Below, piece by piece: positions 3,364-32,169 of a DNA stretch of 32,169 nucleotides. Positions within the stretch are counted from its first letter, which is position 1, and each line of letters begins with the position of its first letter. The notes under the pieces are model-generated. The model had not been told where the DNA came from. It saw only the letters and a list, made by a program, of their open reading frames with translations, and ran no database searches. Both the position numbers and the translations under genes were made by a program. The DNA is from Deltaproteobacteria bacterium RIFCSPLOWO2_02_FULL_50_16 (GTDB lineage: Bacteria; UBA10199; 2-02-FULL-50-16): positions 16,068 to 48,236 of the forward strand of contig MGSF01000013.1 of the NCBI GenBank assembly GCA_001798715.1, written 5' to 3'.

Positions 3364-6018
3364 ATGACAAAGAAAGACAAAAAACAAAGACTGGTCGTCA
3401 TCGGCAACGGCATGGCGGGGGCCCGTGTGGTGGAGGAGATCCTTCAACGCACCCCGGACAAATTTGAGATCACCCTGTTGGGGGCCGAACCCTATGGAAA
3501 TTATAACCGCATCCTTCTTTCCAACGTGCTCAACGGCACTCAAGACCCTACAGACATCTTCCTCAACCCCTTGGCCTGGTATCAAGACAACAGCATCAGA
3601 CTTCATGCGGGGGTCATGGCCACGAAAATCGACAGGGACAAAAAGATCGTCACGGGGCAGGCGCTCAAAAAAGACGCCTGTCCCTATAGCAACGAAAAAT
3701 CTTCATGGGTTCATTCACCTCCCCTCTCAATCCCCTATGATAGCCTCATTATCGCCACGGGGTCGCGTCCCTTTCTTCCCCCCATTGAAGGCTGTGATGC
3801 CCCTGGCGTCTTTATGTTTCGCACCTTGGATGATTGCACCCGCATCGCCGAATACGCCAAAAACTGCAAAAAGGCGGCCGTGATTGGAGGAGGGCTTCTG
3901 GGACTGGAGGCGGCCAGGGGCCTCATGACACACGGGGTCCAAGTCACCGTCTTGGAGGCCGAGACCCAACTCATGAAGGCCCAACTGGATCATGAGGGCC
4001 ATCGCCTTCTCCAGTCAACAATGAAGACGATGGGGATCACAACTCTCTGCGACAAAATCACCACCCGCATTGAAAGAAAAAACGGAAGGATCGAAAAAAT
4101 CGTTTTCAAAGACGGAGAGACGCTCGAAACCGATATGGTCATCCTCAGTGCCGGCATCCGTCCCCTCACCGAGCTCGCAACGGCCTCTGGACTGGAGGTA
4201 AAAAGGGGCATTGTCTGCAATGACCGGATGCAGACGAGCGATCCCTCAATATTTGCCATGGGCGAATGCGCCGAACACCGCCATCGACTGTATGGTCTCG
4301 TAGAACCGATCTGGGAACAGGCGAGGGTCGTTGCCGACATTATTACGGAGACCAACATACATTCCGAGTATACAGGCTCTTCCAAACTCGGGACCAAACT
4401 CAAGGTGATGGGGGTGGAGCTGGCCTCCATGGGGATCACGGAGGCCCAAGGCCCCGAGGATGAAGTCGTCACCTACAGCGAACCCCATCGCCGTGTTTAT
4501 CAAAAACTCATCCTTCGCGAGAATAAACTCATCGGCGCCATTTTATTGGGGGATATCCAGGCCAACGACACCCTCACAAGGATTTTCAAAGAAGAAAGGG
4601 AAATCTCAGAAAACAGATCGGAGCTTTTATTTGGAGAACCGGAGACCCTGTCTCTGACAAGTATTCTAGAGATGCCGGATAGTTTTCAGATTTGCAACTG
4701 CAATGGGGTCTCCAAGGGACAAATTCGGGAGGCCCTCCGGACAAAGAACTGCACCAGCGTCGCCCAGATAGGACAATGGACCCATGCGGGTAAAGGCTGT
4801 GGGTCTTGTAAAAATGTCATCACACAACTGATCCGGGCTTATGCTGATGAAATCACCCCCGATCCTAGTGAACATTATTATGTCCCCGGCATCCCCTTAG
4901 AAAAAGCCCGATTAGTCTCAGCGATCAAGGAAAAGGAATTGAAATCCGTGAGTGCCGTTTTCAAGGAGCTTGCCGCTGGCCGGGAACACGCCGAAAGCAA
5001 GGCAGGCATGGCTTCTTTATTAAAATCCATTTGGAACGAGCAATATGAAGACGAACGAGATGCCCGTTTTATCAACGACCGCGTTCATGCCAATATTCAA
5101 AACAACGGGACCTTTTCTGTGGTTCCCCGCATTTATGGGGGCGTGACCTCTGCCGACGAGCTTATTCGTATCGGGACCATTGCCAAGAAATATAACGTGC
5201 CCATGGTCAAGTTTACCGGAGGACAAAGAATCGATCTTTTGGGAGTCAAAAAAGAAGATCTTCCCAAGATATGGAAGGACTTGGGTCTCCCGAGTGGTCA
5301 TGCCTATGCCAAGGCCGTACGCACCGTAAAAAGCTGTGTGGGGACAGACTTTTGCCGCTATGGCCTGGGCAATTCCATCAAACTCGCCCAAACACTGGAG
5401 CACACCTACCAAGGCATCGAATCCCCCCACAAAATCAAAATGGCCGTGGCCGGATGTCCCCGCAATTGCTCTGAGGCCCTGGTGAAAGATGTGGGCGTCG
5501 TGGCCATTGAAGGGGCGCGATGGGCCCCGGCGACAGAGCGCCGGGACCCTGGAGCACCAGAGGCGCGATGGGCCCCGGCGACAGTACCTTCGCAGAGCTC
5601 GGGTACGTTTGAAGCGCCGGAGGCGCGTTACGAGCGCTGGGACCCTGGAGCACCAGAGGCGCGATGGGAAATCTATGTGGGTGGTGCGGCGGGGGGGACG
5701 GTCCGCAAGGGAGATCTTCTGTGCACCGTTGATAACGACCCGGGAGAAGTTGTGAAGAGGGTGGGCCGGTTTATTCAATATTACCGCGAACTGGCTCAAT
5801 ACATGGAGCGATCCTACACTTTTGTAGCACGCATAGGCATTCATCGACTCAAGGCCATCTTGATTGACGACGAGTTGGGCCTCTGTAAGGGACTCGATAC
5901 AGCTATAGCCACAGCCGTGAAAAACTATGAGGACCCCTGGGGAGAAGCCGATTTTCCAAAGTATTCGATTCAATTTAAAGGACCTAAACATGTTGAGCCA
6001 CAAAAAAAGGTTAATTAA
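3364..6018 (+). CDS. nirB: Nitrite reductase (NAD(P)H) large subunit with a 50-aa in-frame repeat insertion
   Basis: FAD/NAD-binding N-terminus, BFD-like Fe-S domain (CNCNGV...GCGSC), siroheme domain (CVGTDFC...AGCPRNC); followed by nirD. Confidence 0.95.
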   Translation: MTKKDKKQRLVVIGNGMAGARVVEEILQRTPDKFEITLLGAEPYGNYNRILLSNVLNGTQDPTDIFLNPLAWYQDNSIRLHAGVMATKIDRDKKIVTGQALKKDACPYSNEKSSWVHSPPLSIPYDSLIIATGSRPFLPPIEGCDAPGVFMFRTLDDCTRIAEYAKNCKKAAVIGGGLLGLEAARGLMTHGVQVTVLEAETQLMKAQLDHEGHRLLQSTMKTMGITTLCDKITTRIERKNGRIEKIVFKDGETLETDMVILSAGIRPLTELATASGLEVKRGIVCNDRMQTSDPSIFAMGECAEHRHRLYGLVEPIWEQARVVADIITETNIHSEYTGSSKLGTKLKVMGVELASMGITEAQGPEDEVVTYSEPHRRVYQKLILRENKLIGAILLGDIQANDTLTRIFKEEREISENRSELLFGEPETLSLTSILEMPDSFQICNCNGVSKGQIREALRTKNCTSVAQIGQWTHAGKGCGSCKNVITQLIRAYADEITPDPSEHYYVPGIPLEKARLVSAIKEKELKSVSAVFKELAAGREHAESKAGMASLLKSIWNEQYEDERDARFINDRVHANIQNNGTFSVVPRIYGGVTSADELIRIGTIAKKYNVPMVKFTGGQRIDLLGVKKEDLPKIWKDLGLPSGHAYAKAVRTVKSCVGTDFCRYGLGNSIKLAQTLEHTYQGIESPHKIKMAVAGCPRNCSEALVKDVGVVAIEGARWAPATERRDPGAPEARWAPATVPSQSSGTFEAPEARYERWDPGAPEARWEIYVGGAAGGTVRKGDLLCTVDNDPGEVVKRVGRFIQYYRELAQYMERSYTFVARIGIHRLKAILIDDELGLCKGLDTAIATAVKNYEDPWGEADFPKYSIQFKGPKHVEPQKKVN
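5515..5664. repeat. In-frame multi-hairpin repeat insertion within nirB
   Basis: 150 bp encoding ARWAPATERRDPGAPEARWAPATVPSQSSGTFEAPEARYERWDPGAPEAR between VVAIEG and WEIYVGG; internal direct repeats (5536-5572 = 5632-5668, 1 mismatch; 5514-5536 = 5562-5584) and hairpins. Confidence 0.85.
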
Positions 6019-6377: not shown

Positions 6378-7646
6378 ATGTCAGTAGAAGTGGTGAGTCC
6401 CCCAAAATATCTGGTCGCCATTGTCGGCGGCGCTGTTGCAGGTTCAGAAGCCACAAGGATCTTGACGGATCATGGCGTGGGTGTCGCTGTTTTTGAACAA
6501 AATGCGCGGCCCTACGGCAAAATCGAGGATGGTCTGCCTCGCTGGCATGACAAGCAAAAACCCAAAGAGTACGAAAAGATCAACGCCCCTCTCCACCACC
6601 CACTTGTCCATTTCGTCCCCTCCACCAAAATCGGAAGAGATCTCTCCTTTGCGGATCTCAAAGACTGGGGATTTAATTACATCCTCTTGGCCAATGGGGC
6701 CTGGCGCGACCGTCCTTTGGAGATCGAGGGGATCGACGACTCCATCGACAAGGGTTTTTATTATCAAAACCCCTTCATTCATTGGTTCAATCATTATACC
6801 GAAACAAATTTTCGGGGACTGTCGTGCGAGGTTTGTGAGGATGCCATGGTGATCGGCGGGGGACTCGCCTCCATCGATGTCGCCAAGATCCTCATGATCG
6901 AAACGATCTCACAGGCCCTCGGGAAAAAAGGGATCGTTATCGACCCCATCGAGATCGAACACAAGAGTTGCAAAAAGGTCTTGGAGGAAAACGGACTGAC
7001 CTTGGAAAAACTGGGCGTGACCCCCTGCACGCTTTACTATCGCCGCCGGGCCTGCGACATGCCCGTCGCCTCGTTCAAACCGGGGGCCTCGGAGGAAGAA
7101 AAAAAGAAGACACAGCAAACAAGGGAGCACCTCTTAAATATCGCCACGGAAAAGTATCTCTTTCGCTTTCAGGGAAATTCACTGCCCCTCGACAAGATCG
7201 TCGAAAATGGGCGTTTGGTGGGGCTGCGATTTATCAAGACGGAGATTAAGGACGACAGGGTCATAAAACTCCCGAATACAGAATTTACGGTGCGATCCCC
7301 CTTGACGATCAGTTCGATCGGGAGCGTCCCCGAGCCCATTGAGGGGATTCCCATGAAGGGCGAGTTTTATACCTGGAAAAACTGGGACCTGGGAGAGCTC
7401 GATTCCCATCACAATGTCTTCGGTCTCGGCAATGTCGTCACGGGCAAGGGCAATATTGTCGTCTCCCGCAAACACGGTCAAAAGGTCGCCGAATATCTCA
7501 TCCATGAAAAATTAAAAATCACACCCCCCTTGACGCCCGATCAATACAAAAAGGTGTTGGAAAAAATTCAGGCGCGCCAAAAGATCGTCGGATATGACGG
7601 TGACTTTTCTTCCTGGATGAAAAAGGCCGTCCCCCATGAACCGTAA
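6378..7646 (+). CDS. FAD-dependent NAD(P)-binding oxidoreductase (GltD / adrenodoxin-reductase-like)
   Basis: N-terminal VAIVGGAVAGSEA dinucleotide fold, KIEDGLPRWHDK, second Rossmann motif VIGGGLASIDVAK. Confidence 0.8.
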   Translation: MSVEVVSPPKYLVAIVGGAVAGSEATRILTDHGVGVAVFEQNARPYGKIEDGLPRWHDKQKPKEYEKINAPLHHPLVHFVPSTKIGRDLSFADLKDWGFNYILLANGAWRDRPLEIEGIDDSIDKGFYYQNPFIHWFNHYTETNFRGLSCEVCEDAMVIGGGLASIDVAKILMIETISQALGKKGIVIDPIEIEHKSCKKVLEENGLTLEKLGVTPCTLYYRRRACDMPVASFKPGASEEEKKKTQQTREHLLNIATEKYLFRFQGNSLPLDKIVENGRLVGLRFIKTEIKDDRVIKLPNTEFTVRSPLTISSIGSVPEPIEGIPMKGEFYTWKNWDLGELDSHHNVFGLGNVVTGKGNIVVSRKHGQKVAEYLIHEKLKITPPLTPDQYKKVLEKIQARQKIVGYDGDFSSWMKKAVPHEP

Positions 7647-8814
7647 ATCTCTCATCATTATTTTCCTCGTCATCTTTGTCGATCTCCTGGGATTTGGCAT
7701 GATCATCCCCATCCTGCCCTATTATGCCAAATCCTTCGGGGCCAGCGCGACACAGATGGGCTGGCTGATGGTGTGTTACTCGGGTCTTCAATTTATTTTT
7801 TCCCCATTCTGGGGATCCCTGTCGGACCGGTACGGCCGGCGCCCCATCCTCTTAACAAGCATCCTGGGTGTCGGTGCCTCGATGATCGTCTTGGGGGCAG
7901 CCTCGTCACTCTTCTGGCTCTTCACCGGGCGTCTCTTGGCGGGATTTTTCGGGGCCAATGTCGCCGCCGCCTCTGCTTATATTGCCGACATCACGCCCCC
8001 TGAAAAAAGGGCCAAGGGGATGGGGATGATCGGCGCTGCCTTTGGCCTCGGTTTTTTGTTTGGTCCTGCCATCGGCGGTTTTCTCTCCCAATGGGGTTAT
8101 GGGACGGCCGCCTTTGCCGCCGGGGGGCTCTCCCTGGCCAATTTTCTCTTTGCCCTTGTTGTTTTAAGAGAGCCCCGTCGACAGAGCGACGGGGCCCATC
8201 GTTCCCATTTTCAAAAAGATCTCTGGTTCAAAATATTACGGAGCCCCCCCACGGGGATCCCCATCCTCCTCTTTTTTCTCGTCACCACCGGCTTTGCCCA
8301 GCTGGAGACCGTCTTTGCCTTTTTCATCCTGGAGCGTTTTGGTCTCCAAGCCCCTCATGCCGGCTATATCTTGGCCCTGATGGCCCTGGTGATAGTCCTC
8401 ATCCAAGGGGGCGCCATCGGAAGGCTCTCTCACAAGTTTGGTGAGGCGCGTCTTGTTATCTGTGGCACCCTTGTCATGGGGATTACCTTGATTGCCGCCA
8501 GCTTTAGCCTCCTTGTGACCCTTTTTATCGTGGCCCTTATTTTTCATGCCCTGGGCTACAGCATCACTCATCCTTCCTTAATGAGTCTCACCTCACGTCA
8601 TGCCCCTCAAAATCTACAGGGAATGACCATGGGGATCTATCAATCGGCGGGGAGCATGGCCCGTGTCATCGGCCCTTTGACGGCCGGAATCCTCTACGAT
8701 CATCTAGGTCTTAGAACCCCCTTTTGGGTGGCAGGGGGGTTCTTTTTATTGGCGACCCTTATTATGGGAATTCAAAATCGGCGGGACAAGAATGGGGTCG
8801 GAAAGGTGGTGTGA
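7636..8814 (+). CDS. MFS transporter, TetA-like DHA1 family
   Basis: Multiple hydrophobic helices; SDRYGRRPILL motif; overlaps the preceding gene by 11 bp. Confidence 0.88.
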   Translation: MNRKSLIIIFLVIFVDLLGFGMIIPILPYYAKSFGASATQMGWLMVCYSGLQFIFSPFWGSLSDRYGRRPILLTSILGVGASMIVLGAASSLFWLFTGRLLAGFFGANVAAASAYIADITPPEKRAKGMGMIGAAFGLGFLFGPAIGGFLSQWGYGTAAFAAGGLSLANFLFALVVLREPRRQSDGAHRSHFQKDLWFKILRSPPTGIPILLFFLVTTGFAQLETVFAFFILERFGLQAPHAGYILALMALVIVLIQGGAIGRLSHKFGEARLVICGTLVMGITLIAASFSLLVTLFIVALIFHALGYSITHPSLMSLTSRHAPQNLQGMTMGIYQSAGSMARVIGPLTAGILYDHLGLRTPFWVAGGFFLLATLIMGIQNRRDKNGVGKVV

Positions 8815-9740: not shown

Positions 9741-11162
9741 ATGCCCCCCCCTCTAAAAGTTGTCGTGATCGGTGCGGGTCCAGGAGGTTACGCCGCCGCC
9801 TTTAGGGCCGCCGACCTGGGCCTTGAGGTCAGTCTTGTCAGTACCGAAGGAGGTCTGGGCGGCACCTGCCTCCATCAAGGCTGCATCCCCTCCAAGGCCC
9901 TTCTGCACATCGCCAAGGTCATCACTGAAAGCAGGGAGGCCAAAAAATGGGGCCTCGAATTCGGCGCCCCCAAGATCGATCTCCAAAAAATTCAGGCCTG
10001 GAAGGAGGGTGTTGTCCAAAAAATGACGGGGGGCCTCCATCATCTGTGTCAACAGCGCAAAATTAATTATATTCCGGGACGGGCCAGTTTCATCGATCCT
10101 CATACCCTCCAAGTGACTTCTCAAGAGGGTCGTCATCAAGATCTACATTTTGACAACGCCATCATCGCCACGGGGTCATGCCCCGCTACCCTTCCTGATC
10201 TCATGTTGAAAAGCCCCCGATTTTTGGACTCGACATCGGCTCTTAATCTCAAAGAGATCCCCAAGACACTTCTTGTGATCGGCGGCGGCTACATCGGGCT
10301 GGAGCTGGGTTTTGTCTATGCCTCATTAGGTTCTCAAGTGTCCCTCGTCGAGATGACCACGAGCCTCCTTCCGGGAGTGGACCGCGATCTCGTGCGTCCC
10401 CTGGCCAAACGACTGGGAGACCTCTTTCAAGACATCTCTCTCAAGACCCAGGTCAAGAGATTGGGAGAAAAGAAGGGGGACATCGAGGTCGTCTTTGAAG
10501 GCGAGGGAAAAAATGATGCACAAACCTTTAGTCACGTCCTCATGGCCGTGGGCCGCAAACCCCATACCGATGATTTGAATCTAGGCTGCACAAGGGTCAA
10601 GACCGACGACAAGGGTTTCATCGAAGTGGATGCTAAGCGTCGTACCAACGAACCTCACATCTTTGCGATCGGCGATGTTGCCGGACCTCCCATGCTCGCG
10701 CACAAGGCCACGCACGAAGGATGTCTCGTGGCTCAGGTGATTGCCAAAAAAGATATCCAGTCGAAGCCCAAGGCCGTCCCGGCAGTGGTCTTTACGGATC
10801 CAGAGATCGCCTGGTGCGGATTGATGGAGACAGAGGCCAAGGAACAGGGGCTCAAGGTCCAGGTCGTGCGTTTTCCCTGGATGGCCTCGGGGCGGGCCGC
10901 CACACTGGATCGCCAAGAAGGTCACACAAAACTGATCTTGAATCCAGAGACAGGACATATCTTAGGTGTCGGCATCGTCGGTCCCGGGGCCTCCGAACTC
11001 ATTGCCGAAGGGGTCCTGGCCATCGAGATGGGGGCCAAGGTCGGAGACCTCTCCTCCTGCATCCATCCCCACCCCACCCTCTCCGAGACCCTTAAGGAGG
11101 CCGCAGAGATCTTCCACGGCTTAAGTACTCACCTGTACCGACCGATAAAACCGGAGGTTTGA
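9741..11162 (+). CDS. lpdA: Dihydrolipoyl dehydrogenase
   Basis: VVVIGAGPGGYAAAFRAADLG, GGTCLHQGCIPSKALL, C-terminal HPHPTLSETLKEAAE. Confidence 0.95.
   Translation: MPPPLKVVVIGAGPGGYAAAFRAADLGLEVSLVSTEGGLGGTCLHQGCIPSKALLHIAKVITESREAKKWGLEFGAPKIDLQKIQAWKEGVVQKMTGGLHHLCQQRKINYIPGRASFIDPHTLQVTSQEGRHQDLHFDNAIIATGSCPATLPDLMLKSPRFLDSTSALNLKEIPKTLLVIGGGYIGLELGFVYASLGSQVSLVEMTTSLLPGVDRDLVRPLAKRLGDLFQDISLKTQVKRLGEKKGDIEVVFEGEGKNDAQTFSHVLMAVGRKPHTDDLNLGCTRVKTDDKGFIEVDAKRRTNEPHIFAIGDVAGPPMLAHKATHEGCLVAQVIAKKDIQSKPKAVPAVVFTDPEIAWCGLMETEAKEQGLKVQVVRFPWMASGRAATLDRQEGHTKLILNPETGHILGVGIVGPGASELIAEGVLAIEMGAKVGDLSSCIHPHPTLSETLKEAAEIFHGLSTHLYRPIKPEV
11041..11143 (+). repeat. 103-bp direct repeat copy 1 (3' end of lpdA)
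   Basis: Matches 13970-14072 with one mismatch (11135 G vs 14064 A). Confidence 0.97.
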
Positions 11163-13969: not shown

Positions 13970-14072
13970 TCGGAGACCTCTCCTCCTGCATCCATCCCCA
14001 CCCCACCCTCTCCGAGACCCTTAAGGAGGCCGCAGAGATCTTCCACGGCTTAAGTACTCACCTATACCGACC
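13970..14072 (+). repeat. 103-bp direct repeat copy 2 (duplicated lpdA 3' end with alternative tail)
   Basis: Near-identical to 11041-11143; reading frame continues to RPRQATK-stop instead of RPIKPEV-stop. Confidence 0.97.
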
Positions 14073-16788: not shown

Positions 16789-17676
16789 ATGACCCCTCTC
16801 CCTCCCCCCTATTTGGATCGCAAGAAGAGGGATGTCCCCGACCTGGAAAAGATCTGGAGCTTCATCAATCCCATGATGCTCTATGTCCGTCACCTGGGTT
16901 TTAGGGGAAATTTTGAGAAAAAACTTGCCGAGCGCGATCCCAAGGCCCTGGAACTCAAATCTCAGGTGGATGCCGTAAAAAACGAAGCTAAAAAATTTAT
17001 GAAGGTCAAGGCCCTCTGGCAGTTCTTTGAGGCCGAGGCGGAAGGGAACTCCATTCATCTTTTTGAAACTGGAAAGACACCTTCGCAGACCAGAGTCAGA
17101 GACTCTGGAACCTGGGGCTCCAGAGGAGCTGATCCGAGCTCAGGTGCGCTTGAAGCACCAGAGGTGCGAAGCGAAAAACCCCTGCATACCTTTACCTTTC
17201 CCCGTCAGAAAGCAAATGGGCTCTGTCTCTCTGATTATGTCCTGCCATCCAAGGAAGGTGTCCGAGATCACATCGCCGTCTTTGTCGTCACCGCAGGAAA
17301 GGGGATCATGGAACAGGCCCAATCATGGAAGGAAAAGGGAGATTATTTAAAGTCCCATACCCTTCAGGCCCTAGCGATCGAGACCGCCGAAGGGTGTGCC
17401 GAGTGGTTGCATCAGAGGATCCGCGAGGACTGGGGATTTGCCGATCCCACGGACATGACGATGTTGGCGCGTTTTCAGGCCCGCTACCGCGGCAAGCGCT
17501 ACAGCCCAGGATACCCCGCCTGTCCTGATTTGGAGGATCAAAAAGGGATCTTCAAACTCTTAAGACCCGAAGATATTGGCGTCCACCTGACGGAGGGCAT
17601 GATGATGGACCCGGAGGCCTCTGTCAGCGCCTTCGTCTTTTCCCATCCGCAATGCCAATATTTTAGCACCTTGTAA
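16789..17676 (+). CDS. Separately encoded methionine synthase activation (AdoMet-binding) domain protein with in-frame repeat insertion
   Basis: LCLSDYVLP, RYSPGYPACPDLEDQKGIFKLL, LTEGMMMDPEASVSAFVFSHP match the MetH activation domain; same frame as metH, after one stop codon. Confidence 0.88.
   Translation: MTPLPPPYLDRKKRDVPDLEKIWSFINPMMLYVRHLGFRGNFEKKLAERDPKALELKSQVDAVKNEAKKFMKVKALWQFFEAEAEGNSIHLFETGKTPSQTRVRDSGTWGSRGADPSSGALEAPEVRSEKPLHTFTFPRQKANGLCLSDYVLPSKEGVRDHIAVFVVTAGKGIMEQAQSWKEKGDYLKSHTLQALAIETAEGCAEWLHQRIREDWGFADPTDMTMLARFQARYRGKRYSPGYPACPDLEDQKGIFKLLRPEDIGVHLTEGMMMDPEASVSAFVFSHPQCQYFSTL
17077..17178. repeat. In-frame multi-hairpin repeat insertion, same family as the nirB insertion
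   Basis: Encodes TPSQTRVRDSGTWGSRGADPSSGALEAPEVRSEK; perfect hairpin CCAGAGTC-AGA-GACTCTGG (17090-17108), GCTCC-AGA-GGAGC, GCACC-AGA-GGTGC; modules shared with 5515-5664. Confidence 0.8.
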
Positions 17677-17699
17677 GGTTGGCGGCCCACAGAAGGCTA

Positions 17700-17822
17700 G
17701 AAACCTCTCAAAAAGACCCAGATGCAAGGCGCCCGCCGAGTGAGGCCCGAGGCGTATTAGAAAGTACGTTGAGGGTCGCGCGAGAAGGGCAACACCGCAG
17801 ATGGGACTTTTTCAGAGGTTTC
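17700..17822. repeat. MITE/REP-like element with 21-bp terminal inverted repeats between convergent genes
   Basis: GAAACCTCTCAAAAAGACCCA (17700-17720) vs reverse complement of TGGGACTTTTTCAGAGGTTTC (17802-17822), 2 mismatches. Confidence 0.85.
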
Positions 17823-17828
17823 ATTCCT

Positions 17829-31506: not shown

Positions 31507-32169
31507 ATGAAGATAATTCGTGGGATCCATATTTGTGCACTCTCCATTATATTAATAGGGATCCTTGTCTCCTCTTCGACCCACGCCGCAGGGGCCCTTG
31601 CTAAAGCCAAAACGGGCTCAAAGGTCAACCAGACTGCCAATATGTCCTTCGCCAATTCCGGCAGCAATGCCCTGATGTCGACGGTCAGCCAAGGGATCTT
31701 TGTTGATGTTGGCGGAAGGAATGTTGCCGTTGCAGGGACTGGAGCCGGCTCTGTTGAGGGGGGCGGTTTTGATGTCGTTGTCCGCGATCCCGGTGGTGGA
31801 GGGGGGCAAGAATGCAATCCCCAGACAAAACCAGCACCAGTACCCTGCATCCAATTTGTATGCCTCCTGGGCCAGTGGAAGCCTGATACCGTATCCCTCA
31901 ATGGAGACGCCTGCAATGACAGCAACGCCTGTACTGTGACAGATGTCTGTTCCGGAGGGGCCTGCACGGGCTCTGGAACTATTCCAAATCTCAATGACAA
32001 TAATGTGTGTACCACTGATACGTGCGTCAATGGCGCCGCTGTCCATACAAACAACACAGCTGCCTGTAACGATGGCAATGCCTGTACTGTAACAGATGTC
32101 TGTTCCGGAGGGGCCTGCACGGGCTCTGGAACTATTCCAAATCTCAATGACAATAATCCCTGTACCAAT
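31507..32169 (+). CDS. Secreted Cys-rich tandem-repeat protein (3' end beyond window)
   Basis: Not in the ORF track because it runs off the edge. Translation MKIIRGIHICALSIILIGILVSSSTHAAGA... then ACNDxNACTVTDVCSGGACTGSGTIPNLNDNN repeats. Confidence 0.85.
   Translation, partial: MKIIRGIHICALSIILIGILVSSSTHAAGALAKAKTGSKVNQTANMSFANSGSNALMSTVSQGIFVDVGGRNVAVAGTGAGSVEGGGFDVVVRDPGGGGGQECNPQTKPAPVPCIQFVCLLGQWKPDTVSLNGDACNDSNACTVTDVCSGGACTGSGTIPNLNDNNVCTTDTCVNGAAVHTNNTAACNDGNACTVTDVCSGGACTGSGTIPNLNDNNPCTN
31909..32169 (+). repeat. 153-bp (51-codon) tandem repeat in the Cys-rich protein gene
   Basis: Unit 1 31909-32061, unit 2 from 32062; 66-bp perfectly identical block (31939-32004 = 32092-32157). 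Confidence 0.93.

Follow-up and report, generated by a model that had tools for sequence, protein, structure and literature searches.

Rickettsia palindromic elements (RPEs) are about 150 bp long and fall into ten families, each with its own conserved peptide, and nearly half of the copies in R. conorii lie in genes (PMC10969869, which also reviews the RPE work of Ogata et al. 2000, 2002). A CGTC end tag has been reported for the RPEs of R. conorii, and intragenic REP sequences are on record in several species (PMC3733652). The inserts analysed here lie in metH and nirB, within a window of 32,169 nt (the whole stretch of DNA that was studied), and consist of a unit of 48 nt. This unit shares with RPEs the in-frame insertion in unrelated conserved genes. 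It does not form the single long palindrome of roughly 100–150 bp that is typical of an RPE, and the CGTC end tag is found in 0 of 62 contexts. The GTAG at the hairpin foot that marks REP sequences moved by a RAYT is likewise found in 0 of 62, and a Y1 gene flanked by copies of the unit, as expected for a RAYT system, is not found in the genome from which the window comes. Of the features of IS200/IS605 elements, the lack of a target-site duplication is seen at sites with known empty copies; as to insertion 3' of a fixed short target related to the right-end cleavage site, the picture is mixed, with TTCCG in the Elusimicrobia genome G061 and elsewhere AG (20 of 62 contexts) or GATGGG.

Comparison of the copies in the genome of origin defines a unit of about 48 nt, corresponding to 16 codons, with two hairpins. 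Hairpin 1 (19–21 nt) comes in two forms, one with a 9-bp stem closed by an AGA loop and one in which the stem is shorter and has an internal loop around CAGAG. It is followed by a spacer of 7–8 nt, by hairpin 2 (13 nt, 5 bp, loop mainly AGA or GGA) and by a tail of 6–7 nt that pairs with the spacer in some units. The stems vary with compensation. For 12 units chosen by sequence similarity, the covariation score of the structure is 0.502, compared to 0.113 for shuffled and at most 0.151 for slid partners, with 81.9% paired cells and changes on both sides in 12 of 19 pairs. Of 70 distinct units, 62 have a perfect hairpin 2, built from 13 different arm sequences, and 47 have the outer 5 bp of hairpin 1 intact, with 27 arm sequences; this second count is biased towards structure because the units were found by the structure model. 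The ends called by the covariance model differ from the insertion ends in some subfamilies (a tandem period of 48 where 47 was called). Loop statistics of single hairpins were rejected as a sole criterion, being too weak, as such loops are common to other palindromic families.

The first-pass annotation had placed 34 extra residues at 17077–17178 in the MetH activation domain. The insert is real, and alignment to orthologues trims it to 32 residues or 96 nt (17078–17173): residues 3–95 and 129–293 align to the class relatives G031, G019, G006 and G017, with a single residue between the two blocks. The insert is built as a nest, CACCTTCGCAG[ACCAGAGTCAGAGACTCTGGAACCTGGGGCTCCAGAGGAGCTGATCCG]AGCTCAGGTGCGCTTGAAGCACCAGAGGTGCGAAGCG, in which the inner unit stands in the additional brackets. 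In NirB, the insert amounts to exactly 144 nt or 48 residues in comparison with all five close orthologues and consists of three units, which include the peptide VPSQSSGTFEAPEAR. The aligned blocks of NirB (to residue 732 and from residue 779) overlap by two residues for each of these orthologues. The corresponding empty DNA reads GAAGGnGGnAAATGGGAAATC in four of the five, and the fifth deviates in detail. Both metH and nirB are found once in the genome, with the frame open. The coordinates are collected in Table 1.

Table 1. Positions in the window of the two genes that carry inserts, of the units and unit parts within them, and of two further palindromic features (^ marks a point of insertion)
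Feature	Position	Strand	Basis or remark
metH activation-domain gene, carries an insert	16789..17676	+	ORF and alignment to class relatives
Outer metH unit, 5' part (CACCTTCGCAG), broken after CAG	17078..17088	+	
Inner metH unit, 48 nt, nested in the outer unit, in the loop of hairpin 1	17089..17136	+	identical copies in C9 and C46
Outer metH unit, 3' part	17137..17173	+	11 + 37 = 48 nt; whole insert of 96 nt missing in class orthologues
nirB gene, carries an insert	3364..6018	+	orthologue comparison
nirB insert, unit 1, 48 nt	5525..5572	+	covariance model and copy comparison
nirB insert, unit 2, 5' part (CCCCGGCGACAG)	5573..5584	+	
nirB inner unit, 48 nt, nested in unit 2 at GACAG^AGCGC	5585..5632	+	
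nirB insert, unit 2, 3' part	5633..5668	+	12 + 36 = 48 nt; whole insert of 144 nt missing in five orthologues
Perfect hairpin CCCCGTCGACAGAGCGACGGGG, in frame in MFS transporter gene (7636–8814)	8173..8194	+	
Copy of another palindromic repeat family	17697..17824	.	apex GGCGTATTAG^AAAGTACG at 17751–17768

The DNA shared between the two genes had been read as a set of modules in differing order, and thus as mosaic versions of one element. The common DNA is far above chance, as the pattern GCNCCAGAGGNGCG gives 13 matches in the genome and its reversed control none. The differing order was also read correctly. Its cause, in contrast, is not a shuffling of modules: units have inserted into the loops of other units, so that the supposed modules are parts of a unit and the supposed mosaics are units inside the loops of others. 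The same nests as in metH and nirB recur on the contigs C86, C46 and C9 and in the class relative G037.

Further features of the window and of the MetH loop were noted. The MetH proteins of two relatives, G012 (L038) and G002 (L043), carry other, unrelated-looking extra residues in the same loop, which indicates that this position tolerates insertions. The perfect hairpin in the transporter gene looks, tentatively, like a unit that has lost its second half and retains hairpin 1; the covariance model of the unit does not detect it. At the Rfam gathering score, the window has no matches. A direct duplication of 103 bp (11041–11143 and 13970–14072, 99% identity) has copied the 3' part of a dihydrolipoamide-dehydrogenase-like gene upstream of metH, and a direct repeat of 106 bp with 92% identity lies at the end of the window (31909–32014 and 32062–32167).

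Two empty sites in other repeat families allow the insertion to be followed base by base. The first, CATAGAGGCAG^TAAGG (GGCAG^TAAGG), is occupied in C49 and C52, and the second, GGCGTACTAG^AAAGTACG (ACTAG^AAAG), in C46, C54 and C73; the repeat apex given in the last row of Table 1 is the empty form of this second site. Relative to their known empty copies, the occupied sites have gained 48 nt, without duplication of any target base. A subtype of 47 nt has inserted at CTTGAG^CGGC of the first repeat family. In insertions with a known empty site, the unit has entered a hairpin at its apex or close to it, and AG commonly precedes it. Upon rejoining of the flanks, a stem of at least 5 bp is formed in 14 of the 62 distinct contexts compared to 2.2 in shuffled ones, and some of these stems represent nests in other units. 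In the relatives G002, G014 and G032, the unit is preceded by GGGAG or GGAAG and followed by AGGG. With AG restricted to the fraction of contexts given above, type I units often following GATGGG and the units of G061 following TTCCG, more than one target rule has to be assumed. In G061, TTCCG is often found in the left flank and also forms the end of the unit; flank and unit end share 3.4 bases on average, compared to 0.33 at random positions.

Besides the 48-nt unit, the genome of origin has five or more further families of palindromic repeats, about 100–170 bp long and with many copies, some of them mutually nested (L085:16806–17041, L080:18157–18340, L071:7409–7581, L074:15464–15588 and the copy in the window at 17697–17824), and several of these families are landing sites for the 48-nt unit.

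Several further genes have insertions whose size fits whole units. The inserts in ClpB and in the acetyl-CoA acetyltransferase (thiolase, atoB) are exactly 16 residues in comparison with the structures 4d2q and 6bn2, respectively. An offset of 64 residues in RlmN corresponds to four units, one nested in opposite orientation, and an offset of 33 residues in an elusimicrobial PpdK to one 48-nt unit with a nested unit of 51 nt. Extra residues at or near the unit site are also seen in PDB alignments of Acs, RibE, ApgM, HDAC, agmatine deiminase and SucC, where neighbouring indels bar an exact count. In Pfam-supported genes of the genome of origin, units lie in frame in holA (single in this genome, frame open), uvrC, an FtsJ/TlyA-like gene, two HGD-D genes, an RluA-type pseudouridine synthase and a Na/H exchanger. 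Others lie in frame in tsaD of G002, in a LigT-like gene and murI of G037, and in murI, dapF, LUD, epimerase, RNase HII, AcrB-type, ribE, sucC and pyrF genes of G061; a few of the G061 units lie so close to the N-terminus that translation may begin after them. In G061, a locus with three tandem partial units at a spacing of exactly 51 nt (17 codons) in one open frame was also observed (L281, G061:C47:3450–3582).

All six reading frames are used by units in genes, so no particular peptide is kept, and the earlier proposal that one part of the element is read in the same frame in both genes does not hold as a rule. Nor does the element have a special stop-free character, as had been supposed: on average 4.3 of 6 frames are open, compared to 4.1 of 6 in shuffled units, which leaves selection for stop-free units unsupported and describes an element that is merely GC-rich and usually 3n long. 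In the genome of origin, 24 of 25 genic units are 48 nt long (the remaining one is ambiguous), while 12 of 30 intergenic units are 47 nt long after collapsing copies (p=0.0013). The genic class was assigned by hand with an open frame required, and the comparison therefore tests survival and not the landing site. The same test with model-called lengths is negative for 40 Elusimicrobia loci (p=0.52). The frame argument therefore rests on the orthologue comparisons, in which MetH, NirB and others show inserts of exact unit multiples.

A scan for further copies with the covariance model gave at least 75 unit matches at E<=1 in the genome of origin (1.73 Mb; 150 of 776 candidates scored), with E-values down to 1e-12, and a DNA search detected about 12 further dispersed copies at E<0.1. 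This genome is a draft of 90 contigs, and the counts come from genome searches and about 0.4 Mb of sampled stretches. Runs of N (8–24 or more) stand beside several units (L005, L010/L034, L077:18614, L155) and represent scaffold gaps or masked bases. Among 45 other genomes of the class, for which only part of the candidates was scored, matches were obtained in G037 (11), G002 (4) and G014, G032 and G025 (one each), and G015 has one doubtful, borderline match. The other 39, including the sole relative of the same order, have no unit at E<=0.01 among the candidates scored. A pattern scan of 84,980 species for the type II unit detected it only in two Elusimicrobia MAGs and in MAGs labelled 'Deltaproteobacteria' (the genome of origin was possibly excluded). 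The Elusimicrobia genomes G060 and G061 have 23 and 52 matches, and in one Elusimicrobia class 14 of 98 genomes carry the unit with up to 57 matches per genome. It was not found in the IMG/VR viral contigs, phages and plasmids searched. The thiolase unit of the genome of origin has 43 of 48 bases in common with units of G061 and G060. That similar units turn up so patchily in different phyla points to horizontal spread, which is inferred. Together with the orthologue comparisons, the scans support the first-pass annotation in its main claim of a dispersed mobile family in a form compatible with protein coding.

In G060, units are also found mid-way in a longer repeat (...GGTTTAGCGCAGGGGAG...GGCAAGG...; L205, L209, L211, L215, L219). 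This longer repeat is likewise located within open frames, in some cases next to glycosyltransferase, pyruvyl-transferase or SpoIID domains, and is a second coding-compatible repeat family.

The likely explanation, in our view, is that metH and nirB carry copies of a selfish, non-autonomous mobile element some 48 nt in length. Its mobility, the translation of the inserts and the activity of the proteins have not been shown directly. The unit, its nesting and copy number, the insertions of 16n residues, the covarying stems, the hairpin-apex targets and the occurrence in two phylum-level groups are direct observations, and that the unit is a mobile element is well supported. Mobility is inferred from the copies and from vacant sites within other repeats, without a comparison of strains in which one site is occupied and empty. 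According to the proposed mechanism, the unit would insert whole and, where the empty site is known, without target duplication. It would favour the apical loops of hairpins already present, often at AG^AG, and as units themselves offer such loops, nested arrays would arise. Since most units are 48 nt long, GC-rich and often open in the frame that is hit, an insertion in a gene would add 16 residues per unit and could persist where a housekeeping protein is permissive. Translation of the inserts and continued function of the proteins are inferences, without translation or activity data behind them.

IS200/IS605 elements transpose as single strands, have a hairpin near each end, generate no target duplication and insert 3' of a short motif. 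The lack of duplication, the short left motif, the hairpin near each end and the apex preference of the unit fit such single-strand transposition, and movement by an enzyme of this type supplied in trans is a possibility that we put forward tentatively. No enzyme linked to the units was found. The sole Y1 gene of the genome of origin (L192, G000:C87:4027–4359) is enclosed by a palindrome of its own (GGGGTCAG...TTGACATTCGACAT / ATGTCGAATGTCAGGACCTGACCCC); with no unit beside it and the palindrome unrelated, it was rejected as a linked mover. The carriers G037 and G032 have no Y1 match in their incomplete assemblies. Reverse transcriptase RVT_1 (PF00078) and IS110 (PF02371) were considered as movers and discarded, since none is present in the genome of origin. 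The most far-reaching version, in which a minimal 48-nt element is directed to hairpin apices by an unknown enzyme, passes horizontally between phyla and acts as a frame-compatible peptide inserter that alters dozens of core proteins per organism, remains speculative, and we doubt it in this full form.

The units could instead be REP sequences of the GTAG/CGTC type that are moved by a RAYT and stray into genes. Short hairpins in high copy number and in arrays, one Y1 gene in the genome, the lack of target duplication and the recorded intragenic REPs (PMC3733652) would agree with this. We regard it as unlikely, given the absence of both tags from all contexts, the two differing hairpins in a fixed unit of 48 nt, a Y1 gene without an adjoining unit and carriers without a Y1 match. 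A classical MITE, with the unit as a reduced DDE transposon and the flanking repeats TTCCG (in G061) and GATGGG (type I) as target duplications, is harder still to reconcile with the data and appears improbable. The excess of bases shared between left flank and unit end in G061 and the GATGGG on both sides of nirB and type I units point in this direction. The shared bases, however, are one constant motif, and exchanging flanks among the G061 units also gives 3.4; at known empty sites, the full 48 nt are extra with zero duplicated bases, and neither terminal inverted repeats nor any inverted repeat joining the unit ends is present.

Proteins of normal length would result if the inserts were spliced out after transcription or bypassed by the ribosome, as in Magnusiomyces mitochondrial genes. 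The strong hairpins, the insertion in many essential genes and a bypass precedent of similar size (PMC6649704) could be explained in this way. An open frame, however, is kept through every genic insert, whose total is 48n or 48+51 nt. Units of 47 nt do exist, but outside genes, and neither splicing nor bypass would require such a restriction; both orientations and all six frames occur as well. We hold this explanation to be very improbable. That there is no mobile element, only a chance likeness of GC-rich DNA coding for Pro, Ala and Glu or artefacts of metagenome assembly, might be suspected from the 90 contigs of the draft and the N gaps beside some units. This suspicion is already refuted by the 13 matches against none for the reversed pattern, by model E-values to 1e-12 with no unit among the candidates scored in 39 related genomes, and by exact 16n insertions in single open frames of conserved genes in independent assemblies from two phylum-level groups.

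For the mobile element that we favour, the empty sites can be compared base by base. This opens the chemistry of insertion, the enzyme still missing and the capacity of enzymes to tolerate 16 added residues to testing. ClpB, RlmN, UvrC, HolA, MetH, NirB and PpdK provide a natural set of positions that accept foreign peptides. For annotation and phylogeny, the unit is a trap that gives rise to false indels, false ORFs and broken assemblies. The unit is undescribed in the open-licence literature searched, and an earlier description elsewhere is not excluded.

Coding hairpins are also kept within protein-coding genes of nematomorph mitochondria (PMC6649704) and in the bypass elements of Magnusiomyces. 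Those cases are organellar, being either long inverted repeats with perfect arms or bypass elements that are not translated, in contrast to a bacterial dispersed unit. With IS200/IS605 and its non-autonomous derivatives, the unit shares the absence of target duplication and the hairpins close to both ends, and many insertions likewise lie 3' of a short motif, though not the same one in all genomes; it differs in having no linked tnpA, in carriers without a Y1 match, in its preference for hairpin apices and in its size of merely 48 nt. Similar to REP, BIME and REPIN sequences with their RAYT (GTAG, CGTC; PMC3733652), it consists of short hairpins that covary and reach tens of copies in a genome, in arrays and partly in genes. 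Unlike them, it has no tag, a fixed two-hairpin organization, self-nesting in loops and no RAYT beside its copies. Rickettsia palindromic elements resemble it most: selfish hairpins found both between genes and, in frame, within many conserved but unrelated genes, with no known enzyme. RPEs differ in their length of about 150 bp and their conserved peptide from this 48-nt, two-hairpin unit that nests in itself, is read in six frames and occurs in Elusimicrobia and a 'Deltaproteobacteria' class. RPEs are the nearest precedent, and judged by tags, size and transposase linkage we class the 48-nt unit with neither the RPE nor the REP family. In-frame palindromes of Rickettsia and genic REPs were already known; the much smaller, self-nesting two-hairpin unit extends such insertions to two other phylum-level groups.
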